Assembly (NCBI GenBank): GCA_021613335.1
Contig: JAJTWR010000437.1
Span: forward strand, 186,001 to 250,000
Reading direction: 5' to 3'
Length of the DNA stretch: 64,000 bases
Source of the DNA: Whitmania pigra
Lineage: Eukaryota > Annelida > Clitellata > Hirudinida > Haemopidae
The number at the start of each line of letters is the position of its first letter. The stretch's first letter is position 1. Below are positions 5,284 to 62,700 of this stretch, piece after piece. The position numbers and the translations under genes are program-made. The notes under the pieces were generated by a model, which worked only from the letters and a program-made list of their open reading frames with translations, was not told where the DNA came from and did no database searches.

Positions 5284-8200
5284 ATGGAGGAAATTGTAGA
5301 AAAAGTTGTCAAAAGCATTATCAGGCCATTTACAAGTGAATCTCTAAAGAAGATCGAGGAAAAAATAGAGCTTGGAAAGAAGGAAAAAGATGCAGAAAAG
5401 GAAACAAAAGACACAAAAATGAAAAGGGCTTTAAAACAAAGCCAAAGAAGCAAGGAAAGACCAAATCCTGCTTTGTTGCCTGGGAAAAAATTTCCAGAAA
5501 AACTTGGAGAATTCCCTAAGGAATTGTACGGGAAACCAATCGAAGATTTGGATGAATTCTACAGAAACAAATATGTAATTTTTCCTTTTATGTGTTTTTG
5601 AACTTTTTTACATATGTAAATTAAAATTTAGTTTAATAGTAATTTATTATAATTTTTTAATAAGGTGTTTCACATTATCTTTCTCTAAGTTTTTATGAAC
5701 AACGTTCAAAGTTTGTTATTGAAGGTGATTATGCCTCAGTGAACGACATAATCTGCTCCACAATTCCCGTTTCGTAAAGTATCAAAAGTTTTCTATTTTA
5801 AGGCTAACTTTGATGAATCAAATTTTCTAATTGCTTATAACTCCTGAAATCTCCAAAAATTTCTATGATTAACTCAAACTTTTTAGCATTTATATCATCA
5901 ATGTCAAAGACAACGTTTTCATATTTATCTAAAACAGGGGTTTCTAACCTTTTCTATGTCCCGCATCCCCAGAAAACTTTTAATTTTGCATCCATGGTTG
6001 GGCACCCCTGATCTAAAACAAAAGACGAGTTAATAATTTGTAGACATTAAACATTTTGGCGAAGTGGTTTAAACATTTACTATTTCTGCAGACTTTCATG
6101 GTTGTATCAAAAGATGGGACGATGTTTCGCTTCAGCGCTACAAAAGCTTTTTTTCTCTTGAGTCCATTTACGAATTTGAGAAGAGGAGCTATTTATATCC
6201 TAACACATCCATATCCTTTCTTTGTTAAAAATCATGCAGCAGATGTTAATTAACTAGTGAGAAGCAGAATGCTATTGTTAAAAGAAATTATTTCAAAAAT
6301 GATCCCTTAACTTAAATAACATTTTTCAGTCTTATTATCATGACCGTCATTCTTGTCAATTGTGTTTTCATGGCGGATAATAGGGATGTGATTATCGCAG
6401 AGTGAGTTTTCAGAAAGCGTAAAATCGGAAGTTGTATTTTCAAATTTCATTTTATAATTCATTGCAGGTATGTTTTTACAGCTATATTCACAGCAGAAAG
6501 TATTGTCAGAATGTTGGCCAGAGGATTTATTTTGCATGAGTTCACATACCTCAGAGATCCGTGGAACTGGCTTGATTTTGTCGTGGTCACATCAGCGTAA
6601 ATGAAAAGAAATTGACAGTTTCATATGTTAATCATGAATCAACCTATAATACAAAAAATACTTATTCATAAATTATATCAAATCAGACAAGTACAAATAT
6701 TTAATTCAGGTATTTGCAGTTAATTCTAGACGGCAGATCATTTCTAGGTTTTCTAAGGACTCTCAGGGTGTTCAGAGCCCTTAAATCGGTGGCAGTTGTT
6801 CCAGGTGAAATGTTTTTACAACGTACAATTCATATATTTCGACTTGTTACAAAACTCACTTTGTAACTTTCAAATTAATAAATAAGGATTAAAACTGATC
6901 GTTGGAGCTTTGATGGAAGCAGTAAAAAGATTACGAGATGTGATATTGCTAACAATATTCATGCTTTCGGTCTTCGCTCTCATTGGCCTCCAGTTGTACA
7001 ACGGTAAATTATTGCGAAAGTGTGTGAAAAATCCAAACCCTTCATGGGCCGCTTATATTTCGCAACATCGTTTGTGGGAATTTCGAAATAATTCAGGTTA
7101 ATGAAAAAGTCAAAATTTTGTAATTGGTAATGAAGTTATGAAATTTATTTTATAATGTTGAAATAGATCATTGGTTGAAGCATTCATCTGGCACTTACGA
7201 AGTTTGTGAACCTGACGCTGCGTTTGGAAAACAGTAAGGCAACTGTTAATTGTTTTTATTAATTTTGGTGTGCGAGTTAATTCAGGGATCGGAAATGAAT
7301 CAACAACAAAAAACACATGTGTCACGCAGTGGCGTACCAACTGTTCTTGCCGCCCCCGCCCGCTCTTGACTGTTAATAATCCGTTAGCCTTCAAAATTTC
7401 GAAAAGCTCTCAAATATATATTTTTATGGAACTACAATCAAATAAGAATTTACAAACAAATTTTCCGAGCTTCCTTTCCGCAAAGTTTTTTTATATAACA
7501 GTTTCAAAATTTAGTCCATCGGCAAGTTCCCTTTCTGTAGAAAAGACGGCCAAGTCTGTCAGCCTTCGATGATCGAAGGTAGTAAGTTTTATTAACTTAA
7601 GTTTAGAGGTAGAGCGCTCTCATCTGGCTGCGATAATAGCCTGGGATAGGAAGATATGCAGCAGGATCACAGTATCCCAAGATGGTATCTCTGTATAAAG
7701 CTCATAAAGTTAAAGGAGCCCATCAATTTTATCGTTTCCTGAAGCTTCCACAAATACTTCAATCTTTTCCTTTTGGCGAAGAACTGTTCTTTCTACTATA
7801 TCTTCATCAACTACTACAAGCTGACACTAATAATTATCATCAAACAGGTGTGAGAACTTACGTATTTGTTTGCAAGACCATGAACTTGCTGAAATCTGCC
7901 AGACATTTCCTCAGTCAACTTATCGGTGACACACAGCATTTCCTGACTCAGCGTCAAATCCCAGCGTTGCGTACCAACTTCACATCCATTCTTTTCTTTT
8001 TGCGGATTCGACGCTCCATGCTTATATACATTTTAGAGCAGAGTTTTTTAGATTCGTCTATTGCATTGTCTCTTTCTACGGAATAACTTGATCAATCGAT
8101 GAGTTATACCAAATGCCTAATTGAAATCTGATCCTTCAAATGGCACAACACAAAAACTGGAGAAAAGGGTCGGCCATTTTTTCAATTTTTTAATTTTAAT

Positions 8201-8788
8201 ACTCCCTCAAAATGCCGCCCCTTGGCATGTTCCGCCTGGACAAACCCCCCCTACCGCCCTTCTCTTGGTATGCCACTGGTGTCGATCTCGACCCAGCTTG
8301 CACATAAGGCTCTCTGGGAAATGGCGATATATCTCTGGGTATTCTAAGTGACTCGGATTCTTATTCGTATAGCTTTATAATTATTGTATTTGTATAAATT
8401 ACATCTATTACAATTCCAGCTGTCCCGAGGATTACTCGTGTTTGGAAGTTGGCGACAATCCAAATTTTGGTTACACAAATTTTGATACGTTTTACTTTGC
8501 CTTTCTTTGCTCATTCCGCCTTATGACACAAGACTATTGGGAAAGTTTATATCAATTAGTGAGTCAATTTGTTTACTAAAAGGCAAATGATTCATGATGT
8601 AGAATGATTTATGTTTATTTAAGGTCTTGAAGGCCAATGGAAGCACTCACATGATATTTTTCATCTTTGTGGTCTTTCTGGGATCGTTTTACTTAGTTAA
8701 CCTTATTCTTGCTATTGTGGCGATGTCATACGATGACTGTAGAAAAAAAGAAGAGAAAGAAGCTGAAGAGGAACTTGCAGCTGCACTG
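5284..8788 (+). CDS. Nav1 N-terminus and domain I (exons 1-9)
   Basis: Exons as I read them: 5284-5574, 6092 to about 6223, 6330-6401, 6478-6596, 6720-6804, 6887-7096, 7167-7233, 8420-8558 and 8624-8788. They encode the cytoplasmic N-terminus, S1 ([11 protein letters not shown]), S2-S3, the S4 sensor ([15 protein letters not shown], four basic residues), S5, a short turret with several Cys, the P loop [14 protein letters not shown] and S6 ([18 protein letters not shown]), then an acidic coiled-coil-like start of the I-II linker. The residue after the filter Asp is the aromatic Tyr usual in tetrodotoxin-sensitive channels. The exon 2 donor and exon 3 acceptor differ by one base of phase, so either a non-canonical donor or a sequencing error lies near 6210-6230. 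Confidence 0.92.
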
Positions 8789-14700: not shown

Positions 14701-17700
14701 TCTAGCAGATGTCACTAAACGAAATATTTAGGTGACAATTTCGAACAAAATCATAGATTTGAATTGTTCATTTGCTATCTTCCCAATGATTGCAAATAAT
14801 GAGCAAGAAATATTCCCAAGCAGTTTCCAGAAGCTCATTTCGACTTGATTCTCAAACCAGCGACAAGTCTTTTGAACTTCCGGAGGTCCACGTGACTATC
14901 GACTCCTATGACGACAATGTAGTTGTGAGTTTGTTGACGTTTCAGATCACTTTTTTTGCTTACACTGAGAAGTCCAGTTATGTAATATAATTAAAGTTGA
15001 TATTAAATTAAAAGTAGATTACCAAATTATAATTACATAAATTAATCATAATTGTTTGATGGGTAAGTTAAATGGATGAATAGTTTGCATAAAACTTTGA
15101 ATTTTAATTAAACTATATAGAATGCAATGCTCACGATTTACTTAAGGAAAGAATCGAAGAAGATAAAGAAGAGATTTCTTCAAAATATCTTCTCACTTCG
15201 ACTAATCTTATCAGAAGAGCTTCTATTGCTTCCAGCATGGCAGAGCTGGGCTACCGAGGTTCAACAGACTTAAATGATATTATAAGATATTTTATATATT
15301 TAAGCCTTTTAAATTATTTGCGGCTATTAATTTTAAACGTTATTTCATCTTCATGTAATTGTCAACAGATACTGAGGCTTTAAAAGAATTTTTGGAAACT
15401 TGCACACAAGGAAGATGTAATATTACTCACGCAATATCAGCATAATTAAATCTCTCAATTTAAAAATTATGTTTATCTTTTAGTATCTTTTAAAGATAGC
15501 AACATTTCTTGTCCTGAAATGGTTCTAATCAAGATTGAAGATTTTCTATTTGGCTGGGAATACCCACCTTGGTGGAAAAAAATTTGTTATCCAATAGAAA
15601 AGTTTATCATGGATCCTTTTGTCGATTTGTTCATTACTATATGCATTATAGCAAACACAGCTCTCATGGCACTTGATCACGCGGATATATCAGAGAATAT
15701 GGAATATACGCTAAAGACTGGAAATTATGTCAGTAATATTTCAAGAAAACTGGATTTCATCATCACCATTTTATAAAATTTATTTAAAACTAAACTAGCT
15801 TATTAAATAATAATCACAATCTTTTCCATTTTATTTCAATGTAGATATTCACTGGCATATTCGCTTCAGAAGCACTTTTGAAAATTCTTGCCTTGGGCAT
15901 GCTAAATTACATTAAAAATCGATGGAATATTTTTGATTTAACCATTGTCATCCTCAGCTCAATAGAAGTAGTTCTAAGAAAAATTAAAAGTTTTTCGATA
16001 CTCAGGTCTTTTAGACTGGTAATCGTTTTTATTGGGCTTCACAAGATGTTAAATTCCTTCTCCAATGTTTCAAATGTAAAATTACTTTTTTTTTTATTTT
16101 AGTTGAGGATATTCAAACTTGCTAAGTCGTGGCCCACGTTAAATTTATTAATTGGAATCATAGGAAGAACTGTCGGAGCCTTGGGTAATCTGTGTCTAGT
16201 CCTGGCAATTATAATTTTCATTTTTGCGGTCATGGGAGTACAGGTAGAAACGTTGGCTTTAGCATTTGTGGTTAAATTGTCTCAAAACTATATTTCAGTT
16301 CTTTGGAAAAGATTACGAAAAGGCAAAGCATCAAAGTGAATCTGTTTCGCGATGGAATTTTGTTGATTTTTCCCATTCTTTTATGATAGTGTTTCGAGTT
16401 TTGTGTGGAGAATGGATAGAATCCATGTGGGATTGCATGAGATGGTCAACGAGCTCCATTTGTATTCCATTCTTTCTTCTCACCATGATCATTGGCAATT
16501 TAGTGGTAATTGTGATTCCATTAACTTGTTAACAGTCTTTCTGTAATTAACTATTGATTTTGCAGGTTCTCAATTTGTTTTTAGCTCTTCTCCTGAGTTC
16601 ATTTGGCAACAATTGTTTCAACCAGGAAGAAAAAATTAATGAAGTCACAAAACTGAAGGAGGCAGCGGAGAGAATGCACAGATTCTTTCTTTATTTATTG
16701 TTCAAATGCCGACTCTTTTTTCGATATCTTCTCACAGGAAACAGTAGAGGTGATTTTTTTAAGTATAAATTTTAATAATTCAATCTTTACCATTTAAATG
16801 AGGTTTGCTTAATTGAAGTTAACGAGGTTCAGAAAGTAACAAAAGGAGGTGTCCTTTCTCCAGTATACAGCAACCTCACCCAGGTTGCAACGGTGACATC
16901 CAACGGTTTGTGAATGAAATATAATATATTTGGGAATGGCGTTCATTCTAATATTTCAATAATCAAATTTCAGATAATGTTGATAGCCTTCAAAAAAGTC
17001 TGCAAAATGTAAATATTCAATATTGATTAATATTGAATTATTTTTAAATGATGAGTAACTTCAGACATGTTTTGAATTCAGTCCAGAAATCCTTCGCCGT
17101 CAACATTATCAGATACTTCGGATTCGGAAGATTCGTCAAATGAACTGACATCTATTTACGGTTCCCGAATAAAAGAGGTGACGGTTGTCCACGTCAACTT
17201 TCCTAACAACTGTTGCCCTAAAACTTCAAGATGTGGAGGTCATTTCTTTTTGGCCTTATAATTTTGTTTACATAACGCCTTGCAAATACTGTCATACCTT
17301 AGAAATCTATAAATCACTGAAGCTGTCTATTTCATTCGCTCTATAAACAATAAGAGTCAGAACAATTTTGTTTTAGATTTGTGGTCTGCCTCAATGAAAA
17401 CTAAATGTGGTCGCAGATGGTGGGCCTTTCGGTGTTACTGTAAAATACTTGTGGAGAGCAAGCTATTTGAAATGTTCACAATTTTTATCATTGTTGTTAG
17501 CAGTCTGTCTCTCGTAAGTAGGTATTTACTGTTTTAGCAAATCAATTAAACATAAACTTCTTTGTCGTTTTGCCAAGGCTATGGAAGACAAAAACATTGA
17601 TTCCAAACCGCATTTAAAATCAACTTTAAAGAACTTGGATAAGATTTTCACCGTCGCTTTCACCATGGAGTTACTTTTGAAGATGACTGCTCGAGGATTC

Positions 17701-20700
17701 ATTCATTTTTTTAAAGATCCATGGTGTTGGCTTGATTTCATTATTGTGGCTGTGGGTAAAATGACTGGCATTTTCATCTCCATATATATTAGAATTAAAA
17801 TTCTAGTAATTATTAATTACAAGGTGTCCCTTGTCGTGGAAGCGGGAGAAAATACTGACCTTTCGAATATGGTTGGGTTTAGAGCATTAAGAACATTAAG
17901 GGCCTTAAGACCTTTAAAAGCTGTTGCACGATGGGAAGGAATGAAAGTTTGTGAATTTTAACTTTGAATTTTAAAACATCGTGGCAGCTAAGCAATGTAC
18001 ACTCTACGTTTCCTACTGCAGGTAGTTGTGAATGCTTTGTTCCAAGCCATTCCGGCGATTTTTAACGTTCTCCTGGTTTGTCTTGTTTTCTGGTTAATAT
18101 TCAGCATAATCGGCGTTACCCTATTTGCTGGGAAGTTTAATTTTTGTACAAACGACTTTGGCACAACTCTACTAAACAGCTCAATCGTGGCCAATAAGAA
18201 TCAATGCGAAATATTTAACCTGACTTGGCACACACCTAAAGTTAACTTTGACAATGTTGCCGCTGGTTATTTAGCACTTTTTCAAGTTGTGAGTTATATT
18301 TATTTCTTAAATTATGACTTTATTTGTTTTACTTGTTAAAAAATTAAAATATGCTTCTTAAACAATGTAATCATAGGCCACTTTTAAAGGCTGGACGGAC
18401 ATCATGAAATATGCCACAGATGTTACTGAGGTTAGATAAAAGTAAATTTTCCTTTGATATTCTTTCTAAGAGTTAATTATTTTTCTAAAATCTAACTTTT
18501 TCTAATATTTCTAAATTTGAGTTTAAGTTTTGTATTTTATTAGTACACTTAGAAAATTTTGGTTGCAGAAGGATGAACAGCCAATAAAAGATAATGCCCC
18601 GTCAATGTATCTTTACTTTGTTACTTTCATTATTTTCGGATCATTTTTTACCCTGAACCTTTTCATTGGAGTGATCATCGATAACTTCAACGTCCAAAAA
18701 AGAAAGGTGAGTGTTCCCGGTAGCAGTTTTGATTCTATTAACTATAACTGAAAACGCTAATAAATTACTGAAACAAAATCAGTTAATTGTAACTGTAACT
18801 GATAGCGCCTTAAATAAATGTAACTGCAACTGGAAAGTAGTACTTGATTATCTAACAAATCAAATCAGTTAATAGAATTTTGCATATCAGCATGACTTCA
18901 TTATGTAAACAACTATTTTTCGCAGACTTTTATATCTTATGCTGTCGTTTTGTTAGTGCCGCTGGCACTCCTGCTGAATATTTGGACAGTTTTTTGTGCC
19001 CATGTGATGTTTAATAAGACCGGATGTAATAACTAAATATGTTTTATAACGTGTGTAGATTATATTAGTGTTGTGAAAATCTATTTAATAAACAGGGCTT
19101 GCTGTTTTCATTTTGCAACATGTATGAAGTATTAAACTAGGTATATGTATACAAAAGACTGAAAATCACTGTCCGTTTTATCCCTTCGGTAGGGTAAAAT
19201 GGGCTACTTATGAAATACTGTAGTGTCGCGATTAAGTTGTTAATATATATTAAGAAATATTGAAATATAAAGATTATATATCATATTACATATTCGTAAT
19301 AAGTGGTCTTCTGGACTCCAGGTCCAGAATATTTTGACTATAATAAGCAGTTCGACAAAGTTTGACTCTTTTCTGCTGAGTTCTACTTGTTTCTTCTTAG
19401 CTCTGTTCGACTTAGTTTCTACTTAGTTCTACTCCGTGTTTTTCAAACCAATTTTACTTACTTGGTTATGAGGTTCTTTAAACAAAATTTCTTAAAAACA
19501 CAAAGAAATAGTTGACATAACAAGCACACATAACAATATCAATGAAAAACAATGCAAAGTTTTAAAAATGTGAATGTTCTTATTCTAACTCTTAATTGAA
19601 GCAAGTGTTCATAATAGGTGATTTTGATAGCTGAAAACGAATGGTTCAACATCCTGAATATTCAGGTCACCAGGTAACCCATTTTATCCCCAAAAGGGTA
19701 CCACGGATTTAACTAGAATGTGTGGCATTTTTTAACATTTTGACATTGTAAAAGTTCGACTCGTATAGGGGAAGAGCCTAACACATTAACATGTGTTTAA
19801 TGTTAAAGTAAAAACTGCCTATAGGGACAGTTTAACATTGCAGCAAAAAAATGACCCTATGAGCGGCTTTGCCCTATATCAAGATAAATAAAGGACAATT
19901 TACCACATTTGTAAACAAAATTTAGGAAGAAAATACTCAGCTATTTCAATTTATTAAAAAAAGCTTTTAATATTTTGACCCTTTCTGTATTGTCTCTCAA
20001 CTTTGCCTCCCAGACCTTGTCCTGATAATCTTTGATAATTCAAATGATGTCTTCTGTAGAAGGTGTTGAACTGGCATGGAATAATAGATGTTTATTCCAG
20101 GCTTCTTGGTGAGAAATAATCGCTAACGTAAGGTTAGGCTCGACATCGCTTTTTCTGGTTCAGCTTTAATGACACAAGCATCATTGCATCAATGTCACAT
20201 GCAATCAGTGTTGTGCAGTATCGAATTACATATAATTCGTTACTGTAATTAATTACATTTTTGGTAATTTTTACTTGTAACAATTACAAAAAAAAATTGT
20301 ACTCTTACTTGTAACAAATTACTATTTTTGGTCATACTTTTAATTCGTTACCTTTTTGGCGCAAGACGTTACAAAGTAACATAAATAACATTTTAAATTA
20401 GTTTAATTTATTTAAAAAATTTAAATTCTAGATTGTTATTCTTTGGTTCGTTCGAGAACCTTCCCCTTCCCGATCATCGCTCTTTGTTATTGTGGTTATC
20501 GCCGGTCGTTTTTGTTTTAAATCGGAAATTGTTGATTAGTCATACCGAAGCTTTTTTAATATATAATATTATATACATATAATAATATAAGATTTAATAT
20601 ATCGTAGTATGGATTCATTTGAAGCCATTTTTAGTGTCGTTAGCGAAGATAAGAGGAACAAGGGTGAAGATAGTCCGTGGCCGTATTTGAACAAAATGTT

Positions 20701-23700
20701 CAGATTTCAATCAAAGGAAAATCATATGAGTATGCATGCCTACTCTGCCAACAGAAACAAAAACTACATGTTCAGCATATGAAGGTTCTTCATCTAACTT
20801 GAAGTAGCACGTGGAACGCATGCATCCAACAGAATTTAAGGAATATGGGATATCTGTTGCCAACGGTTGTCAAGCTTGATGAGAAACTGGTAGCCAAAAT
20901 AGCATCTTCTAATGCAGCAAAGATGGACGAGCTTTGAGCTCTCGTTCATCTGATGATGTCATCCGATCAGATGACATGAACATTATTACTGGAAGCGATA
21001 CCCTGAAGAAATTATTTATCCAGTTGAACACTCCTCTGTCAGCTAGTGCAGCTGTTGAACGTTTATTCAGCTCTTCTGGTATGACAAAGAACAGCTGAAG
21101 GACCATAATGAGTGACAAACTATTCGAGGACTTAGTTATATTAAAAATTAACAAAAAATTGTGATTGTAATGTAATAAATAATAAAAACACCAAAAGAAT
21201 GCATTAGTTCAAATGTTATTATTTAATGACTGTTAGTACTAGCAGTTAATACCAGTAATTGTTTTAACGATAAGAGAAACAATTTCTTTTAAATAATACG
21301 GAATGATGTATATCACAATAATGGCGGCATCAAAGTTACTTGTAATTTTTACTTAAAAGTAACTTGTAGACGCTGTAACTTTTAACTTTTACTTGAGTAA
21401 ATTTTTGAGACAATACTCTTACTTATACTTAAGTAGCTTTTTGAGGTATTACTTTTACTTGTAACTAGTTACCGAAATGAGGTAATTTTTACAACACTGT
21501 CTGTTGCTAACGATTGTCAAGCTTGATGAGAAACTGGTAGCCAAAATAGCATCTTCTAATGCAGCAAAGATGGACGAGCTTTGAGCTATCGTTCATCTGA
21601 TGCTGACAGTATTGAAGACAGTTTCTTCAATTGCACAAGGTCAACTGATATTCTGATGCAGTATCTTCGAGACCGATCAGATGACATGAACATTATTACT
21701 GGAAGCGATACCCTGAAGAAATTATTTATCCAGTTGACCACTCCTCTCCCAGCTAGTGCAGCTGTTGAACGTTTATTCAGCTCTTCTGGTATGACAAAGA
21801 ACAGCTGAAGGACCATAATGAGTGACAAACTATTCGAGGACTTAGTTATGTTAAAAATTAACAAAAATTTTGATTGTAATGTAATAAATAAAAAAAACAC
21901 CAAAAGAATGCATTAGTTCAAATGTTATTACTTAATGACTGTTAGTACTAGCAGTTAATACCAGTAATTGTTTTAACGATAAGAGAAACAATTTCTTTTA
22001 AATAATACGGAATGATGTATGATCACAATAATGGCGGCATCAAAGTTACTTGTAATTTTTACTTAAAAGTAACTTGTAGACGCTGTAACTTTTAACTTTT
22101 ACTTGAGTAAATTTTTGAGACAATACTCTTACTTATACTTAAGTAGCTTTTTGAGGTATTACTTTTACTTGTAACTAGTTACCAAAATGAGGTAATTTTT
22201 ACAACACTGCATGCAATTTCACACCCATCATCATCATTCCCAACCTGGTCCACACATAGTGGGCCTAGTGGCTGATTTGGTGGACTGCAGAAAAATTTAA
22301 AAAATAGGTGGGCGGTGTGTTATTATTACTATTTCTTAACAAGAAAAAATATCGAGCTTAGACTTACAAATTTACAGGTTTTTCGATTCTAATTGATTGT
22401 ATTTCATAATTTCCAAAAGTAACCAAGTTTAAAATGAGCAATAATAAGTTAACAAGCTTATTCGACTTTCGGAAAACTCGCCTTTCTATCTGGGATTATT
22501 CGCCATTCTACATGTTAATAATTAATGATTAACTAAAAGTATTCTCTAATTTTATAAACATATATGCATAGAAAGAAATAAAATACCCTGTTTTATTTAT
22601 TTTTATGTTTGTCATAATAAAATAGATTCTTAGTTACATTCTTAAGTTGTATCAAAACGCAGTCGAATAGACTTGAACAAACAGACACAAATTGTGTAAA
22701 TGGCGAATTCGATATAATATGGTCGATAATAGAGTTTAACTTTGGCCCTTTTAAAAATACAGTTTTTTTTACAAATTTTAACAAATGGCTACTAAAAATA
22801 AACAAGATACTGAAAGCGATGTCCAGCCAACAAAGAAACAAAAGCATTACTTACGCTAGTATAACGTGACAGATTTGCAGTATGGATTTGTACCTATCAC
22901 TGATAAATCAAAGCCGTTTTGTCTTGTGTGGAACATTTTGTTGTCAAATAAAACCATGAAACATTCGAGATTAAAAGAACATTTGCTAAAAAAGCATCCA
23001 GATAAGCCAATTAGACAATTTCAGCATTCCAGAAAATGAAAGAAAATTTTGAAAAGCGTATGACATTTCCAATGTTTGCTCAAAAAGCAAATTGTTATAT
23101 TAAAAAGTGTCTCATTGCATACAAAGTTTCTAAGTTAATAGCAAAGTGTAGTTAGGCTCAGACAATTGTGGAGTAGTTGATATTACCTGTGTCTGAAATA
23201 ATGTCAACTGTATTTAAAATGGATGCTAGTAAGTTAAAATCAGTTGCTCTTAGCAATAACGCTGTATTTCGCCGCATTGATGAAATGAGTGATGATATTG
23301 AGGCTCAAGTATGCCTAAAACTTCAAGAAACAAAGTTCATTATTCAGCTTGATGAATCCACTTTCCATGATAATCAGGCACTGCTGCTAGCTTATGTTCG
23401 GTTTATAAAGGACAACAAAGTCTGGAAAGAAATGTTGTTTTGTCATTCACTGGAAACATTTTGCCAAGGAGAAAATATCTTTTCAAGTCTCATTGCAAAT
23501 GACGGGAAAGGCCCAGTTCAAAGGAAGTTCCACAAAGAAAAGATGCGAACTTCGAAACAAAAAGAAGAAAAGATCAGACGACAAAAATATTTCGCCAAGC
23601 TTCAAACATTATTTAGGAAGAATGCTTCAGCTGCTGCCAGTGATGGGCAAATCAAATCGCGATTCCGATTTAAATCGCGATCTAGGCAAGGTTACGATTC

Positions 23701-26700
23701 GATTTGAACATTGTTGGATTCGATTTTGGCCTCCGCGATTTTGATTCTATTCGATTTTCCCTTTTTTTGATTCGATTTGAAAAGTAAATGAAATCAAAAA
23801 TGTAATATTATTTATAAAGATGGTTATAAATTCTTAAATTTATAAAATTGGTTATATATTTTTAAATTTATAGAAATGGTTATAAATTCCTCGTTAAGTA
23901 AACATTGTTGTAGGCTACATGCTTCTTGTTCTACTTGTAGCTTTACCGCCTTTTAAATATGTCTGAGTTAGACAGCAGGAAATATAATGCTAAGAAGATT
24001 ATCTCAAGCTGCAGTATGGAAGGCGGTTAATGAAACTCTAGTTAAAGCCAAGGAAGTCAAACGCAGCTCAGGTGCACGTGTCCCTCGAATCACAGTTTCA
24101 CGTTCTTTGCTGCTTGAGCTTGTTTCTTTACTTAAGCCATTTGAAGAAGCAACACAGGTGCTGCAGAGTGATGGTGTCACAATTTCTCAAGTGATACCTG
24201 CATTAATTGGGATTGATGAAGCAATTGCAAATTGTAAAACTCAGTTAATTGCTTTGAAAAAAAAAACCTTCGTGCAGCTCTTCATAACAGATTCCAGGAA
24301 TCTATGAGAAGACCAGAGTATGTGGTCTCAACTGTGTTGGATAGTCGTTTCAATCTAGTTCCTTTTGGTACCACCCCGCTGCTTGATTATCATTTTATTG
24401 ACAGTATTGACAGTGGGTCACATAAAAGTACTACATTAATAATCCCATCAGCCAATGAGTCAAGATCTTCACATGGTGGATTCAATAAAGTCAGAAATCG
24501 ATTGTCATCGTCGACTGTGGAGTCATTGCTGCTCTTGAGGGAACATAGAACTGACTCAAACTGGGTTTAATGATTTTTTTTAAACGGTAATAAAACTGTA
24601 AAAATGTCATAAATGAATGTTGGCTGTTAATTTCATTGTGTTTTGCTCAAAAATTTGCGAAGCTACGGCAGCAGTAAATTTTTGAAGATTTGATTCGATT
24701 TGGGATTTGAACATTTGGGATTTGATTTGGAATTTTGAGATTCGACTTGAGATTTGGTTGTTGAGATTTGAATAATTTTACAGATGATTTGAAATTTGAC
24801 CATGGAGATTCGATTTGAGATTTGCCCATCACTGGCAGCTGCTCAGTTGGTTCTCCGTGAGGAATATGTAGACAAAAAAATGCAATATGGTTGGAGTGAA
24901 GATATTCTGAAGATGCAGGAACCAGTTACAAAATGGGAAGTTCAATTCGCTTTCCGAAGGTTAAAAAATAGTAGTCCAGGGCAAGATGGAATCAAAAAAT
25001 ATCATATCAGAGAATTCAGCTTTGATGATCTAGCTGCTTACATGTCCCTATGGTTGCTAGTGAGCATCGCTCCTGCTTCCTTCAAAGAGAGACTGGTTAC
25101 ATTGATCCCAAAAAACAGAGAAGCATCATCTCCAGGTGATTATCGGCCCATTACAGTTGGCCTAATAATGTCTCGTCTATTCCACCGCGTCTTGGCAAGT
25201 AGAATGTTCTCAAGTTGGTCACTGTCACCACGTCAAAAAGCTTTTTGCCCAGGAGATGGGGTGGCACAGAATATCTTCCTGATTAAATCAATTTTACAGA
25301 AAAAGAGAGAACGGCTTCAAAAACTGAACATGACATTCGTGGACGTCAGCAAAGCTTTCGATTCTGTTTCGCATAGATCTCTCCTAAGAGCTGCGTCCAT
25401 ACTCGGAACTCCACCTGTGTTGCTCAATTACATAAGTAGTTTATATCAAAGAGGAACAGTACGACTGAGGACGGACGATGGTCTCAGTGGGCTGGTGGCG
25501 GTAAACAGAGGAGTTCGTCAAGGAGACTCAATGTCTCTCATTGATCGAAATGATTACAAATGAATTGGATCAAACAATTGGTATTTCGAGCGGCAGAGAA
25601 TCGTCGTCAAAATGCAATTACATCGCCTTTGCCGACGATCCTGTAATGATGTCATCCACAGACATAAGAATGACGTATTGCTAGAACAGTTGGAATATGA
25701 AATGGCTGGCATTGGATTGAAATTGAAACCACTCAAGTGTTCCTCACTTCGAACGGAGACTCATAGCAGGCAGAAACTGTGGATCGTCAATCCCACACCC
25801 TATCCCAAAGTTCAGCATTAAGATATCCGAGCAATAGACATTTCCCAAACCTATAAATACCTTGGCATAGAAATCGGGTCGCGGCTAAAATTCATATCAC
25901 TGAGGGAAAAAGTTAAAAAATCAATTCACTCCATTTCGAGAGCTTCTCTTAAACCATCCCAGCGATTGTACGTGCTCCAAGTTCACTTAATACCAAGTCT
26001 TATCCACACATTTACGTTCGAAAATATATCTCTTAAAGCATTGGCATCTTTTGACGCCGCTATGAGGAAGGCAACAAGAAAATGGGTTTATCTTCCACAG
26101 GATGACCCAATACCCTCTTACTATACCCCTGTCAAATATAGTGGCATGGGAATTCCTCAACTTAAAGAATGGGTTCCACGTCTTCGCATCCAGAGATTAA
26201 AGGGAATTCTGTCCGAGTCTCATCGAGGAAACGACAACTTCATGGCCGACGTATTCAAAGATAACCTCATGTTGATGAATTAATTCAAAAAATTTGGAAG
26301 GGATGCCAAAGGATGCGTGGAAAAGAGGAGTTGCGGAGAGTTTATATCGGACGGTGGATGGATACGGTCTGCGCTCATTCTCCGGGGGAAGAGGCATAAG
26401 TGAGTGAATAACAGCCGCTGTCCCGAAGTTGCCATCTGGCCAATATATCAGATGTTTAAAAGTTCAAGCTGCAGCTCTCTATTGCAAGATGAAAGCTGCG
26501 AGATGGGGACATCAGATTAATACCGATTGCAGGTTGTGAGACCAATGAATATCTGGGGCACATGATCCATAAGTGTCCTATAAAAGAAGGACCCCGACAC
26601 GAGAGCACAACAACGTTGTGAAAATGCTCGAATGCGAGTTGAAAAAAAAAGAGGCTATACAGCAACAATCGAACCTCGCAGGATCTCAGGCCCTGAACGC

Positions 26701-29422
26701 GGGCATTAAAATTTGATGAGGATTTTCTTTGTCTCTTACAATTCCGAGTCGATTTCTTGTGCATTGATTGCTTTTGAAAGGCTGAGGGAATAAAGGAAAA
26801 TAATAAATTTATAAAGCGCCATGTGCCTATCGTCAGAGGCGCCTTGTGTCTTCGGTGTACCATGAAGTCCTGAGGTCTACAACGATGAATAGCGAACTCA
26901 CAAAAATTGGTGCAAATTGGTGTGTATCTAATATTTTATCTCTTAATGTTAAGAAAATTGTGTACATCTTTACAACCACCACATTCACATTGGCGACTCC
27001 TTACTATCTCGAGTTGACAATTGTAAATTTCTTAGAATCATCATTGACCAACACCTTACTTTCAAACCACATTTGATATCTCATTAATATATATATATAG
27101 CTTTATCACCTCGTCGATAGCTGTAACGTTATATTATTCCTTCATATTTTCAAATTTAAATTGTTATAATATAGTTTGGGCTTGCAATTATCCATTTTTA
27201 CCTGCTTCTCTTGCTTAAACTCAAAAAACTCAAGATTCTTAAAGTACATCAAATTAACCACTACCATGCCGGCATCTTTATGTACAAACTGCACCATCAC
27301 ATGCTTCCATACTTATATAATGAACTTATTGTAACTCACTCACCACTACATTAAATAACTTTTTATGAAAAAAAAATTTGTTATTATTGACTTTTGACCT
27401 TCCTATCTTTTTTGGGCACCGCAAAACATTTTGGGATTTTTTTTATTAAGTTTGAGAATATTACTTAACCAAATTTATGTCATAATTTTAGAAACACTAT
27501 CTAGATTACATAATAAAATTTTAGAAATTTTCATGGTGTATTAGTTAAGTTATCGTCAAAAGATGAGTACTTCCTATATATATATATATATTATTGGGCT
27601 GAGTGTATTTAAAGGTGTGTGCAGGAATCTTTGCATAATTTAATCAGGCAGGTGGTTCTTTGGACATGTTCTTAACAGAAGACCAAAAGAGGTATTATAA
27701 CGCCATGAAAAAGCTTGGATCCAAACAGCCTCAAAAACCAGTACCTAAACCCAAAGTAACATTAATTATTTTAATAGTTTAATAAAATAAAGTGATCAGA
27801 AACATGTCATCAATTCTACATAAATTTGTTTTTCAGATTAAATTTCAATTGTTCTTTTTCAACTTGGTATCGAACCAAACATTCGATGTGGCAATAATGT
27901 GCGTAATAGTCGTCAACATGATTTGCATGGCGGTCGAATATCACAATCAACCAGAAGAACTCGAAGATACTTTAGATTATATTAACCAACTATTTGTGGC
28001 TATTTTCACAATGGAATTTTTGTTCAAACTGATGGCTTACCGTTTTTACTATTTCAAACAACCGTGGAACGTTTTCGACTTTGTTGTCGTGATCATATCT
28101 ATACTTGGTAATTAGTTTATTAATGAATAATAAAAATAATAATTATTCCAATAATAACTCTGCAATGTTTCAGGCTTGGCTTTGATGACATTTGTGAAGC
28201 AGCATTTGGTTTCTCCAACATTAATTAGGGTAGTCAGAGTATTTAGAGTAGGAAGAATTTTGCGATTGGTTAAGAGTGCCAAAGGGATTAGAACATTACT
28301 TTTCTCTTTAGCTGTTTCCCTTCCAGCACTATTCAACATTGGATTGCTTCTTTTTTTAATCATGTTCATTTATGCAATATTTGGGGTTTCGTTTTTCATG
28401 AACGTAAAATACTCAAGTGGCATCGATGACATGTTTAATTTTGAAACCGTTTTAAATGGAATTCTCATTCTTTTTCAAATTGCCACTTCGGCAGGATGGC
28501 ACGGCGTACTCGAAGCTCTTCGGGCTGACTGCGACATTGATAACAGTGCTGAGAGGTAAAGAGGTTAATCTTGAGCGACATACGTCATAATTTATGCCAA
28601 CTTTGTTACAATTGTAGTTATTGTTGGCGTGGGGCTATGGCCGTTGCATATTTGGTTACTTATCTAATCATCAGTTTTCTTGTCATCATCAATATGTACA
28701 TAGCTGTCATCCTGGAGAATTTTTCACAAGCAACTGAGGATGTACAACGAGGCTTAACCCAAGATGACATCGACATGTACTATGAAACGTGGGAAAAGTT
28801 TGATGAAAAGGCTACGGGTTACATAAAACTCGAGAAACTGAGTGAGTTTCTTGATGCTCTAGAGCCACCCTTGGGAATTCCAATACCCAACTACTTCACT
28901 ATTATCCATCTGGATATACCCATATGCGAAGATGATGTTGTACATTGCGTTGACATTCTTGATGCTCTTGCAAAAAAATACCTAGGAACTTCAAAAGTAC
29001 GTTTAAATATCATGTCTTTTATTAAAACCACCGCAAAAATAATGACTTATATTTCAATTCATCAGGAAAGTGCCAGGGAGCTTGGTGATGTCAAAAAAGG
29101 CTCGGGAAACAAAAATTACCTGGCATCCACATCAACTCTGCAAAGACAAAGAGAAATATTCTGCGCTAAATTAATTCAGATTGTTTGGCGAAAACATGTA
29201 GAAAAGAAAAAAAAGGAAAGAATGCAGATCGAGAACGTTTTTGGATCAACTAATCAGATTTTAATTGAAAGACGATGTGGAGTCGATGTGAAAAACGTTA
29301 ATTCAGATTCATTACGAAATGAAGGAGGTTCGCCAAAGCGATGTCAAAAAATTGGAACGTTGGAATGCTCCCCACTCCTCATTGTAAATCCGTTCTATCA
29401 GCCAAACAAGTTTTATAATTAA
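5284..29422 (+). CDS. Voltage-gated sodium channel alpha subunit, Nav1/para type
   Basis: Pore-forming alpha subunit of a fast neuronal and muscle Na+ channel in the plasma membrane. All four repeats are present in order, each with six membrane segments and a re-entrant P loop. The selectivity residues are D (8532-8534, TQDYWE), E (16410-16412, CGEWIE), K (18386-18388, TFKGW) and A (28491-28493, TSAGW): the DEKA ring of bilaterian Nav1, not Cav. I place about 34 coding exons, total about 5.59 kb or 1,860 residues, a normal length for the family. The start at 5284 opens an N-terminus with the family motif RPFTSESL. The stop is at 29420-29422. Most introns are 50-110 bp; the large ones are filled by transposons. 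Two junctions (exon 2/3 and within the I-II linker) do not close cleanly in frame. No frame-destroying lesion is seen in the channel core. Confidence 0.97.
5935..6010. mobile_element. 76-bp hAT-type MITE in Nav intron 1
   Basis: Inverted ends caggggtttctaacc and ggttgggcacccctg bound only 76 bp, flanked by a perfect 8-bp duplication atctaaaa (5927-5934 and 6011-6018). The termini match those of the 3-kb hAT element at 11626-14624, which suggests the same transposase family mobilised both. Confidence 0.85.
7327..8278 (-). mobile_element. Degenerate hAT transposon (ZMYM1-like transposase remains)
   Basis: Inverted ends cagtggcgtaccaa (7327-7340) and ttggtatgccactg (8265-8278) bound 952 bp inside a Nav intron. 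The flanking octamers gtgtcacg and gtgtcgat agree only at the first five bases, so the duplication is eroded. On the minus strand around 7680-8090 broken frames carry words such as [20 protein letters not shown], reminiscent of the hAT transposases related to ZMYM1. Stops and frameshifts show it is inactive. Confidence 0.65.
8888..9423 (+). mobile_element. Non-autonomous pogo/Tigger-type element
   Basis: Ends cagtcaaatctcg(gt)tactatgccac and gtggcatagtaacgagatttgactg are near-perfect inverted repeats, flanked by TA dinucleotides (8886-8887, 9424-9425), the pogo/Tigger target signature. Further copies of the motif ctatgccac are scattered inside. At 9245 an ATG opens [19 protein letters not shown], the first helices of the CENP-B/Tigger N-terminal DNA-binding domain; the rest of the transposase is deleted. 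The element ends 44 bp before a coding exon. Confidence 0.85.
9468..15416 (+). CDS. Nav1 cytoplasmic linker I-II (about six exons)
   Basis: Recognisable by phase, splice motifs and continuity rather than by strong homology. Probable exons: 9468 to about 9602 ([18 protein letters not shown]), about 9889-9995 (KTSLKGAST), 11437-11579 ([12 protein letters not shown]), 14804-14924, 15121-15258 ([18 protein letters not shown]) and 15369-15416. Ser- and Arg-rich stretches such as RRASIASS resemble the kinase-site-bearing linker of other Nav channels. The 11579/14804 and 14924/15121 joins do not keep phase as drawn, so at least one small exon is probably missed. The 3.2-kb intron between 11580 and 14803 is almost entirely a nested transposon. 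Confidence 0.65.
10346..10540. mobile_element. Short inverted-repeat element (MITE) of unknown superfamily
   Basis: The left word gggtcccggtataacaggc and right word gcctgttacactggggcacc are imperfect inverted repeats about 195 bp apart. No target duplication is obvious and there is no coding capacity. Confidence 0.5.
10770..11090. repeat. Imperfect direct repeat in a Nav intron
   Basis: The series ttttgaagtggaacc ... tca(c/t)cggttatgtc ... ccgaaccc occurs at about 10783-10860 and again at about 10979-11062 in the same order. It looks like degraded DNA-transposon sequence; no terminus or coding piece could be defined. Confidence 0.45.
12022..13190 (-). mobile_element. hAT-type element carrying a LINE reverse-transcriptase fragment, copy 1
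   Basis: Ends TAGAGATGT and ACATCTCTA with a perfect 8-bp duplication catgtgat (12014-12021, 13191-13198). Subterminal zones are rich in short ATAAAAAAC words. The centre, on the minus strand (12220-12780), encodes the C-terminal part of a CR1-like reverse transcriptase ([29 protein letters not shown]) broken by one frameshift or stop compared with copy 2 at 33860-35037. There is no transposase, so mobility would have needed one supplied in trans. Confidence 0.85.
13644..14429. mobile_element. Long-inverted-repeat element nested in the 3-kb hAT
   Basis: Both arms, each about 150 bp, begin tgtcagtgtcctgac and continue through attgcgttttA, tatgtcgc(a/g)gaggtgtgatg and a GATGCGG word in opposite orientation. 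The middle has no convincing coding sequence. The length of the arms suits a foldback-type or long-TIR DNA element; I saw no clear target duplication. Confidence 0.7.
15484..16749 (+). CDS. Nav1 domain II (five exons)
   Basis: Exons 15484-15728, 15845-16018, 16103-16243, 16299-16505 and 16566-16749. S1 ([18 protein letters not shown]), S2-S3, S4 ([18 protein letters not shown]), the S4-S5 linker and S5, P loop [15 protein letters not shown] and S6 ([13 protein letters not shown]) are all intact, followed by an acidic, amphipathic start of linker II-III. At the insect pyrethroid positions the S4-S5 linker and S5 read Ile (16160-16162, M918 equivalent) and Cys (16193-16195, T929 equivalent). 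Confidence 0.95.
16819..18706 (+). CDS. Nav1 linker II-III and domain III (nine exons)
   Basis: Exons 16819-16905, 16974-17008, 17082-17238, 17377-17513, 17578-17751, 17824-17946, 18022-18288, 18377-18430 and 18569-18706. The linker is short and Ser/Asp-rich. Domain III S4 reads [19 protein letters not shown]. The P loop exon 18377-18430 carries TFKGWTDIM, with Thr (acg, 18395-18397) where nearly all Nav1 channels have Met or Ile. The turret contains N-glycosylation-type sites (NSS, NLT). S6 [16 protein letters not shown] is canonical. The intron 17752-17823 is 72 nt, in frame and free of stops, so its retention would lengthen the S3-S4 loop rather than break the protein. Confidence 0.95.
18707..20205. 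other. Left part of the 8.9-kb Nav intron, no feature recognised
   Basis: AT-rich sequence with low-complexity runs such as repeated gtaact/taactg words near 18740-18840 and gttcTACTT/CGACTTAG words near 19350-19440. No gene, terminus pair or coding remnant could be supported. Confidence 0.5.
20206..22209 (+). mobile_element. hAT element with BED finger and hATC remains
   Basis: Ends cagtgttgtgcag and tttttacaacactg with a perfect 8-bp duplication catgcaat (20198-20205, 22210-22217). Near 20610-20840 a broken frame carries a BED-type zinc finger (YACLLCQQ ... HVERMHP). The right part encodes the hAT C-terminal dimerisation motif ([16 protein letters not shown]). Most of the transposase body is missing, so the element is non-autonomous. 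The 3' part is duplicated in tandem (see separate entry). Confidence 0.88.
20860..22209 (+). repeat. Tandem duplication of the hAT 3' end including its terminus
   Basis: 20860-21499 and 21500-22209 are near-identical units starting tctgttgc(c/t)aacg and ending tttttacaacactg. Each carries the hATC-coding stretch. The first unit lacks about 70 bp that the second has (around 21605-21680). The element therefore has two right termini, one internal at 21499. Confidence 0.9.
22784..23510 (+). pseudogene. hAT/ZBED5-like transposase remnant
   Basis: From an ATG at 22784 a BED-like finger (KPFCLVW ... HLLKKHP) is followed, after frameshifts, by an open stretch from 23177 with [15 protein letters not shown], the catalytic-Asp neighbourhood typical of the ZBED5/SCAND3 group of hAT transposases. 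It ends abruptly at about 23510 where LINE sequence begins. Stops show it is dead. Confidence 0.65.
23510..26880 (+). mobile_element. R2-like LINE, 5'-truncated and interrupted by a hAT insertion
   Basis: Coding words run from 23525 ([10 protein letters not shown]...) to 23637, resume at 24843 after the hAT insertion, and continue to about 26400. Reverse-transcriptase features: [44 protein letters not shown] (motif A), [12 protein letters not shown] (motif B) and, after a frameshift at about 25545, IAFADD (motif C). Downstream there is a Cys/His motif (HMIHKCP). The architecture and word choice resemble the R2/NeSL side of LINEs with a restriction-like endonuclease. Several frameshifts and stops make it inactive. 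Confidence 0.75.
23638..24834 (+). mobile_element. hAT element inserted into the R2-like LINE
   Basis: Ends cagtgatgggcaaatc and gatttgcccatcactg are perfect 16-bp inverted repeats. The flanking octamers gctgctgc and gcagctgc differ at one base. The inside keeps a central transposase fragment ([20 protein letters not shown] at about 24120-24180; [15 protein letters not shown] from 24322) and long arrays of gatttGA/gattcga words beside both ends. The LINE reading frame on both sides joins up if the element is removed. Confidence 0.85.
26886..27350 (+). pseudogene. Decayed LINE reverse-transcriptase C-terminal fragment
   Basis: Words such as [18 protein letters not shown] and, further on, [12 protein letters not shown] and [20 protein letters not shown] in shifting frames match the thumb and connection region of a non-LTR reverse transcriptase, distinct from the R2-like element on its left. 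Many lesions; the family cannot be fixed. Confidence 0.55.
27648..29422 (+). CDS. Nav1 inactivation gate, domain IV and C-terminus (five exons)
   Basis: Exons 27648-27755, 27837-28107, 28174-28555, 28618-28996 and 29066-29422. The first encodes the III-IV linker with the fast-inactivation plug as MFL (27666-27674; insects MFM, vertebrates IFM) and the conserved [17 protein letters not shown]. Domain IV S4 has the usual long run of Arg/Lys ([19 protein letters not shown]). The P loop reads TSAGWHGVL, with His (28500-28502) where Asp is the rule. S6 is [19 protein letters not shown]. The C-terminus has an EF-hand-like region ([20 protein letters not shown]) and an IQ-like stretch ([17 protein letters not shown]) expected to bind calmodulin. 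Stop TAA at 29420-29422. Confidence 0.96.
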
Positions 29423-59700: not shown

Positions 59701-62700
59701 GAAGCAAAGAGGATGTGGTCAATGAAGCTCTCAAATCACTAAATGATGAAACACTTGGCCTACCTTCATTTGTTGATTTTATTCAATTCATACATTCTAA
59801 GGTACAATGTTAGGATTGCTGCTCTCCTATGATTTATCCATAATGTTATTTACTTGTTTTCCAGATGACTTCCAGACCTTCTACTGGAAGCATCAAGAGT
59901 CTGCCTTTTAAAAAAGCTTCATTCATTGAAGTTAATTTTTTGTTTTTTATTTATTATTTGATCGTATAATGGCTATTAACGTTTGTTAATGAATTTTGGA
60001 AATTTGATTCATTGCAGATGTTGAAGTTTGCACAGAGATGTTTGCGCAACGATGTATTGTCCTTTAATTCTCTATCACAGCTTAGTGAGCTGAAATCACC
60101 TCACATAGGAAAATATGTAGTCACTTTGAAATCATCCTATGCAATTCAACTTTTTGTTGATCTCCTTAAGCAATTTCTCTCAGTTCACATAGGTCAGTTG
60201 AAAATATTTTAAACTATCTACTATCACTATTTGATAATATGTTTTTTAGACACTTCGGTACTTCACAGTTTGCTCGAGATTGTTGCCATCACTAAAGATT
60301 TTTTGAACTATGAATTCTTTATTCATGAAACTTGGCTAAAGGTGAGCCTAAATCAGATGTGAAGAAATCATTTTATAATAATCAAATTTGTGGCAGGAGG
60401 CCATATTTGGCACAGTGGAGGAAGCTTCTAAATATGCTGCAGAGTTGTTCTCTCTGGTTGTTACTCAAAACAAATCATTACAAGATCTTCAGCCAATTAC
60501 TCGGGAACTAGTTGCAGATTTGTACATACAGGTGTGTGAGGGAAGCTGCTATGATACTGATTTCAATTTTTTAATAATCATGGGAGGTTTACACCAACAG
60601 AATCCAGAAAAGCAGCGTGGGTCCTTATTTTGCTTTGGATTTCTTATGAACAAAGTCATGATGAGCATGAAGCAAAGAACTGAGAGACCTAACATATCCA
60701 CTGAAGATAAAACATTGTTTGAAAAAGCCTTCTCATTTATTGGTTTGTTGAGCTGCATATGCAACTGTTTATTAGCTTTAAGTCACTTTGTTTATAGTAA
60801 TATGCACAGTGTCAGAGGTGCCAAATTGTTATTTTATAAATCATTTATTCATGCCATATTTTGTTTAATTTCAGCAAATACATTAAAGGACTCTAAAAAA
60901 CTCTCTCTATATCTTGCTGCTTGCTGTTGTTTTAGTGAGTTGGCGAGGTGTGGCTGGTGTGCATTAATTCCTGAGGGCAAAGATGAGAAGGATGATATAA
61001 GTAACACTAAAAGATCCTTTATTCAATTGCTAATTGGTAAAATTCAGTCATCTAAGGATAATCAAAAGGTCTTTTTGAATTTTTAATATTTATTTAAGTG
61101 TTTCTCATTTTTTATGTGAAATGATCAGGTGAGGGAAAGTGCTGCTCTCTGTTTGTCAATGATGTGTGTGGGGGAGGAGGATTTTAAACATAAACAGCTC
61201 ATCATTGAGGGGCTCATGCAAACTGCTGAGGTAGCTTTGCTTGTTTGATTCTAAGCTTTATAGATTATCTTATTGGACATCTAATTTGAATAGTGGAATG
61301 TGTTCAATTGCACATATTTAAATATTTTACAGACTAAGCAGTATGAATTACACTGTGTTGTTGGTGAAGCACTGGTTATTGTAGGACAAGGTTCAAAATC
61401 ATCTGCAGGTCAAGACAAATGGACAAGTTTTGAAGAGGACATAAAAGTATGAGATAATCAGTTATCATCTCAAATAAATGTTAACTTCCAACTATTTTAA
61501 AATTCTTGATCTTGGCAGCCTGCTTCCAATGAATTATGCAGTGACATGAATCTGATATTGGATGTTATTTTAACCAGATATCTGAAAAGTCCCAATCCAA
61601 ATATCAGACAAGTTTGTAGAGTTATTTATTATCTGATAGAAAATATTTCTAGGAATGAAATCTTTCAGGCTGGGTGCATTTGGCTATTGGCTCTTGTGAA
61701 GAAAGTTGGGGAATGGCCTTTGGTTCAGAATCAAATACTGAAAGTTCAAGCTGCTTTTATATCCTTGCTTGGAGAAAATGATGGTATTGAGATTATTTCA
61801 CTAAAGTTTAACTTCAGTTGTATAAGTGAATTTACCATTTTTAAGACCTCACGCAAGATGTAGTATCAAGAGGGCTTGCAGTGGTATATGAAAAGGGCGA
61901 TGAGGAAGTGAAAAAAGAGCTTGTAGCATGTCTCATTGATTCATTAATGAGCAACAGGAAGTAAGAACATTTGTAATTTTAAGGATGATGTATACAAATT
62001 TAAAAATATTGCGATGACACTTAGTTAACACTAAGTATTGAAAGGAAAATAATTCTTTGATGTTGAATTTAAAGGAGGAAGCTTGATATTTCAGAAGACA
62101 CAACAAATGTTTTTGAGGAAGGAAGTCTTGGTAAAACTCCAGAAGGGTAATTATTATTTATTATAAGTTCTACTCACATGTTGCATGTAAAAATCAACAA
62201 CTTTCTTGCAAACAAGCTTATTATTTAGTTTTCAATTTAAACCTTAAATGGCTTGACAAATCCTTGGGACAGCTGCAATAACTTAAGGAGTTAAGCTTAT
62301 TAAAGTATTTGGAAAAGAATTTCTATCAGTGTGCTATATTCTAATGTCCAACTTCTTGTAGCTTCTTCCCCACCTTTCTTAATATGATTTTAAGAAAAAA
62401 CATAAAAAAAAAAAAAAAAAGCATAAAAAGCATTATATCCATTTTGTTCATGGGGGTGTTTTTAGTGAATCAGATTTGTTCCATGATTCTACAAATCCAT
62501 ATAGGGATGAAATATTTAATATATTAATTTATAGTTTTCTTTGAGATATTTTGATTTGGATAAAGTATTTCAGCAAAGAAAGAAAAGAAATCATTATAAG
62601 TTGAAGCTGCTGAAAGTGATTGTATTTGTTTTGAAGGCAGAACATTTCAACTTATAAAGAACTGTGTTCAATTGCTAATGATCTCAACCAGCCTGACTTA

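Follow-up and report, generated by a model that had tools for sequence, protein, structure and literature searches.

The Nav1 sodium channel gene in the window (the whole stretch of 64,000 nucleotides that was analysed), here designated C365, is, with a probability of about 0.7, one of seven Nav1 genes in the genome of what is most probably a leech, with a Thr/His pore that would be resistant to tetrodotoxin (TTX) and saxitoxin (STX), while at least one sister gene has a canonical toxin site and is presumably sensitive; this reading is based on sequence. The pair is the condition now found in a single paralog lineage whose toxin site has been reworked, and it points to a pharmacology divided within a gene family and not to a toxic diet. 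The Nav1 family of this leech is predicted to hold both sensitive and resistant members. The Thr/His pair alone is no indicator of toxin exposure: a toxic diet does not follow from resistance-type residues in a single Nav gene, and the other Nav genes are to be read first. The seven-gene pore map and the differing residues of the ortholog in another leech are new, and the occurrence of the Thr/His pair elsewhere and of Thr in leech channels was already known.

Structure of the window gene and residues of its pore

Gene C365 extends from position 5284 to 29422 of the forward strand, from start to stop codon, in 23 exons. The joined model comprises 402, 299 and 805 residues in its three blocks (1506 in total), with zero internal stops, and is without the linkers I–II and II–III. 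The N-terminus and domain I (5284–8788) are encoded by exons 5284–5574, 6092–6210, 6321–6401, 6468–6596, 6710–6804, 6887–7073, 8420–8558 and 8624–8788, the donor at the end of the last of these being picked by eye. Domain II (15492–16697, outer borders approximate) comprises exons 15492–15728, 15845–16018, 16103–16243, 16299–16511 and 16566–16697, and domain III (17418–18706) exons 17418–17513 (start approximate), 17578–17751, 17824–17946, 18022–18288, 18377–18430 and 18569–18706. The III–IV linker with the inactivation particle MFL, domain IV and the C-terminus (27648–29422) are encoded by exons 27648–27755, 27837–28107, 28174–28555 and 28618–29422. All these features lie on the forward strand.

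Splice sites were consistent across the joined exons, including one AT-AC intron of the U12 type (6211–6320, forward strand) with donor ATATCCTT and acceptor AC. GT-AG splicing of 6210 to 6321 was rejected, as it gave zero in-frame solutions, and AT-AC fits. The U12-type donor ATATCCTTT of this intron is common to the paralogs C152, C110 and C327. Domain III is followed by an intron of 8.9 kb with transposon remains (18707–27647, forward strand; next exon from 27648), in which the Pfam scan recognized a reverse transcriptase ORF at 24793–25560 (RVT_1, 48.9 bits); hAT-like pieces were also seen in this intron, judged by eye only. Over ten ORFs of the window, the scan gave one reverse transcriptase above the cut-off and one below, and seven of the ten had no family. 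At 60382–61083 an ECM29-like ARM repeat exon scored 20.2 bits, below the cut-off of 27, and is probably the next downstream gene.

The selectivity filter of C365 is formed by Asp, Glu, Lys and Ala in domains I to IV, respectively, the D-E-K-A ring of Nav1, in a protein of four homologous domains; Nav2 channels lack the domain III Lys. The particle MFL of the III–IV linker is hydrophobic, as in Nav1, and both sequence searches and trees placed C365 among the Nav1 proteins. The best-scoring solved structures (query cut to 1366 residues) were Nav1.5 chains, followed by other Nav1 chains.

By direct reading of the DNA, exon 18377–18430 translates to ATFKGWTDIMKYATDVTE, with the loop ATFKGWTDIM, in which the outer-ring Thr of domain III (codon ACG, 18395–18397) lies three residues past the filter Lys (18386–18388). 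From 28485 onward the translation is TSAGWHGVL, and the outer-ring His of domain IV (codon CAC, 28500–28502) lies three residues past the filter Ala (28491–28493). The domain I Tyr adjoining the filter Asp (8535–8537) is a canonical aromatic residue, and the outer-ring Glu of domain II (16419–16421) is also canonical; the four codons are on the forward strand. These readings bear out the initial annotation, which had claimed the Thr and the His at these positions together with an intact DEKA ring and a domain I Tyr. The parallel that it had drawn with the blue-ringed octopus holds as well, the Hapalochlaena lunulata channel reading Tyr, Thr, His and Ser.

When 20 Nav1 proteins from animals other than leeches were aligned with C365, the domain III column contained Met, Ile, Val, Thr or Gly, and the domain IV column was Asp in 17 of the 20. 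Rarity was estimated from two protein searches, the best 120 of each giving 179 different proteins, many of them isoforms, of which 178 had four readable loops. Among the matches listed, Thr and His occurred together in 1/178 (H. lunulata), the domain III Thr was present in 11/178 and the domain IV Asp was absent in 6/178. In C365 the extracellular loop that joins the domain IV P-loop to S6 (28538–28640) is short and ends in YCWRGA, most other channels having a DCG-type motif.

Nav1 loci of the genome and their relationships

The window is part of an assembly of 178.2 Mb in 381 contigs and is located on contig 365. A search of the genome with the domain IV exon gave seven strong matches (70–100% identity) and two weak ones (39–43%), and the domain III exon of another paralog returned the same seven loci, together with five other matches of 26–41% identity. 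A single-gene reading was ruled out by both exon searches. When 23 pieces of the window gene were compared by tblastn with the six other loci, all four domains were partly recovered in each, with zero stops in the aligned parts; C328 lacked a match to the two N-terminal pieces and C327 a genuine one to the piece for S5 of domain I, the piece for S6 of domain II was weak or missing in most paralogs, and runs of N are present in the sequence taken from C110, C328 and C327. Seven is to be taken as a count of candidate loci, and expression of each as a gene is not claimed.

The five toxin positions of PMC12732450 are given here in the order domain I aromatic, domain II outer ring, domain III, and domain IV with the next residue. 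The window gene C365 reads Y/E/T/HG, C32 F/Q/I/DG, C152 C/E/A/DM, C110 N/D/M/DS, C328 Y/D/T/DL, C177 F/E/M/DG and C327 C/E/T/DS. Six of the seven paralogs are changed at one or more of the five positions, and one, C177, is canonical at all of these TTX positions of the literature. His is found in one paralog (C365) and Thr in three (C365, C328 and C327). C32 departs from the canonical set only by the domain II Gln, a residue that a passage of PMC8307532 offers, as a hypothesis, to explain why oyster nerve is of intermediate sensitivity to STX. The domain II loop of C110 fits the family only from RILCGEWIDNM, the preceding IAN being a misfit (gene-sense 27605 onward, contig 110) which a border between exons or a fault in the assembly may explain.

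Of the 20 non-leech rows, 19 have the inactivation particle MFM and the remaining one (Pecten) has LFM. MLM is present in four of the seven leech paralogs (C32, C110, C328 and C177) and in the Helobdella protein 109965; LFM is found in C152 and C327, and C365 and Helobdella 89291 have in common the unusual form MFL. Loss of the central Phe might result in slower inactivation or a persistent current.

Most probably the animal is a leech. Two of its seven Nav1 paralogs have orthologs in the leech Helobdella, and the genome has members of the destabilase and hirudin families, which are typical of leech saliva; destabilase exons gave 12 matches in the genome and none in 14 control genomes, with an exon cluster on contig 220 (1836102–1854948), and one hirudin-family exon was found on contig 1 (784192–784248; 19/64 positions; 28.8 bits, cut-off 25), also with no match in the 14 control genomes.

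The protein search with C365 covered 5.8 billion proteins, of which the best 120 were taken. The closest among the matches listed was Helobdella robusta HELRODRAFT_89291 (70% identity over about half the query), followed by Capitella, a second Helobdella protein, Tubulanus and octopus; the second search, with C152 as query, gave no further leech proteins among the matches listed. In a maximum-likelihood tree of 29 sequences, from which the toxin columns had been removed, C365 paired with Helobdella 89291 (support 100/100), C110 with Helobdella 109965 (100/100) and C152 with C327 (94.6/98), and the leech channels formed one clade against Capitella (98.7/100). The C365 lineage, which has the longest stem within the leech clade, was weakly placed beside the C152/C327 pair (49/83). 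A FastTree tree gave the same pairs; the domain III loop of C32, having scored below the E cut-off, was represented by gaps in it and was restored for the maximum-likelihood tree and the parsimony steps. The two Helobdella orthologs pair with different paralogs, so that at least one Nav1 duplication is older than the split of the window leech from Helobdella.

In Helobdella 89291 the residues of domains I, III and IV are Ser, Met and Asn, respectively, the domain IV Asp being absent but replaced by another residue than in C365. Regarding the number of Asp losses in the lineage of both genes, GAC to AAC, GAC to CAC and AAC to CAC are one-base changes each, and one or two losses both cost two steps.

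Predicted pharmacology and alternative explanations

According to PMC12732450, a change from Met to Thr makes TTX block approximately 15-fold weaker and one from Asp to Asn 40- to 300-fold; removing the aromatic residue of domain I weakens it up to 2500-fold, and the domain II change from Glu to Asp approximately 3000-fold; Thr together with Ser in Varroa gave 1000-fold, as stated in a section of PMC7656900. For Asp to His, a measured effect on block was not found in the literature consulted. C365 is substituted at positions with a measured TTX effect, as it has the domain III Thr and has lost the domain IV Asp. Replacement of Met or Ile by Thr, and of the acidic Asp by His, would each loosen the grip of the toxin, so that block of C365 is predicted, by the effects in other animals, to drop hundreds-fold or more.

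Duplication in the leech lineage would have been followed by separate reworking of the outer ring in each paralog, the loss of outer-ring residues being presumably tolerated by sodium conduction. Different neurons may use different paralogs and thereby fire TTX-blocked or TTX-resistant spikes, and at this paralog level a dietary toxin would be unnecessary.

Parsimony steps at the five positions were counted and compared with the other 63 P-loop columns by random draws of five columns (n = 20000). Nine leech tips required 18 steps over the five positions, six times the mean rate of the other columns (0.60 per column), with the filter and other loop residues fixed; a sum of at least 18 was obtained in 0.0001 of the 20000 draws. 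Nine molluscs, on a tree of similar length (2.23, vs 2.29 for the leeches), required 13 steps, a value reached in 0.0027 of the draws. In leeches and molluscs alike these five positions stand out, with only a moderate surplus in the leeches, and their lability is as much an argument for tolerance as for selection. The corresponding arthropod value is excluded, its clade having spanned all 29 tips of the tree.

Exposure to toxin was one of two explanations offered in the initial annotation, by which the animal would make, eat, or live in or on something bearing TTX or STX. A leech feeding on or living with carriers of TTX or STX, in which selection fixed Thr and His, would agree with the presence of the same pair in the blue-ringed octopus, a TTX carrier, and with the changes found somewhere among the five positions in six of the seven paralogs. 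The claim is nevertheless not supported with a canonical C177 among the seven Nav1 loci, since the animal as a whole would be unprotected if its nerves or muscles rely on C177. The existence of another, sensitive Nav1 gene doing the neuronal work had been named as grounds for abandoning the claim; C177, canonical at all five positions and presumably sensitive, supplies this in part. Moreover, the changes are unlike between paralogs, the ortholog of a second leech carries different substitutions, and the word leeches was absent from the best 10 of 44 papers found on newts and TTX. Toxin exposure is accordingly considered distinctly improbable. Neutral drift, the alternative offered in the same annotation, would mean that variation of the outer ring is unconstrained in this paralog family and that the pair is without physiological or selective meaning, whether block is lower or not. 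The mollusc result, the frequencies of Thr and of Asp loss among the matches listed and the long stem of the window lineage are in its favour; the concentration of 18 steps at five positions next to a fixed filter and otherwise fixed loops argues against it, as do identified leech neurons, which vary in toxin block according to a passage of PMC9092978. The changes differ paralog by paralog and are not animal-wide, and drift is regarded as unlikely. An assembly error or a pseudogene, with the pair outside a working gene, could be suspected from the use of a single assembly and from the transposon remains and reverse transcriptase in intron 18707–27647, but it is hardly compatible with 1506 residues without stop or frameshift, consistent splice sites including the AT-AC pair, the existence of the Helobdella ortholog and the recurrence of Thr in C328 and C327, and its probability is minimal.

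A wider reading of the divided gene family is held tentatively, at somewhat less than even odds. Toxin sites would have split after duplication into sensitive and resistant ones by at least four separate chemical routes (a domain I Cys or Asn, a domain II Asp, a domain III Thr and a domain IV His, known elsewhere in mammalian heart, pufferfish, clam and octopus), the window lineage would keep resistance across leech families while its residues turn over, and this would be the molecular basis of the TTX-resistant leech neurons on record since 1976. Several data weigh against the main reading, that of a pharmacology divided within the family: the same five positions vary in molluscs, where plain tolerance explains much, and the window lineage is weakly attached within the leech clade. 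For the CNS transcriptome of H. verbana, a passage of PMC6054404 records no more than three Nav contigs, and a study cited there ascribes a TTX-sensitive component to Retzius cells. In addition, docking work cautions that one substitution need not give equal resistance in every channel (PMC12732450).

If true, a family divided in this way would account genetically for the leech neurons whose firing in TTX has long been on record; each paralog has a definite predicted pharmacology, which can be matched to identified neurons, and an old question becomes testable.

Leech neurons and comparison with other Nav1 channels

Sodium spikes resisting tetrodotoxin were reportedly described in a leech neuron in 1976, STX is said to separate two Na potentials in Retzius cells, and nociceptors reportedly differ among four leech species. 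As summarized in part of PMC9092978, T and P cells have TTX-blocked Na channels and Retzius cells do not; the predicted sensitive and resistant paralogs would fit these recordings.

Four Nav genes have been reported in H. medicinalis (Blackshaw 2003) and three in H. verbana, according to a portion of PMC6054404 in which a leech Nav gene family with cell-specific expression is also reported. The leech studied here is alike in having such a family but differs in its seven loci, the comparison being one of gene number and not of pore residues. Thr was seen in Nav channels from jellyfish to leeches by Du and colleagues, and the possession of three Nav1 genes by a copepod was described as unusual, in passages of PMC5660226. 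Two reviews assign one Nav1 gene to invertebrates (parts of PMC4436565 and PMC6259924), a statement that the seven loci of the leech genome contradict. In the literature searched, which left subscription journals mostly outside, no title announcing the pore residues of a leech Nav family was found.

Varroa VdNav1 shares with C365 the Thr and a non-acidic domain IV residue (Ser), and Bdelloura candida, a flatworm, has the same Thr/His pair by report, both according to a section of PMC7656900; they belong to other phyla, and the Varroa channel was measured while the resistance of C365 is predicted. The Hapalochlaena channel resembles C365 in its pore, with the domain III Thr, domain IV His, domain I Tyr and DEKA ring, but has Ser after the His where C365 has Gly. 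Furthermore, the octopus carries TTX, and the altered leech gene is one of seven, with one other canonical.

Vertebrate Nav1.5, Nav1.8 and Nav1.9 are TTX-resistant family members, so that there, too, the toxin site is not the same in all the Nav1 paralogs of a single genome. The Nav1.5 chain has the domain I Cys, as in the leech paralogs C152 and C327. The duplications are independent, the leech clade being separate, and C365 differs in keeping Tyr and being altered in domains III and IV. Among the collected proteins, Nav1 sequences of Tachypleus tridentatus from two contigs have domain I Phe and Leu, respectively (rows P0014, P0154–P0156 and P0171), that is, more than one Nav1 type.
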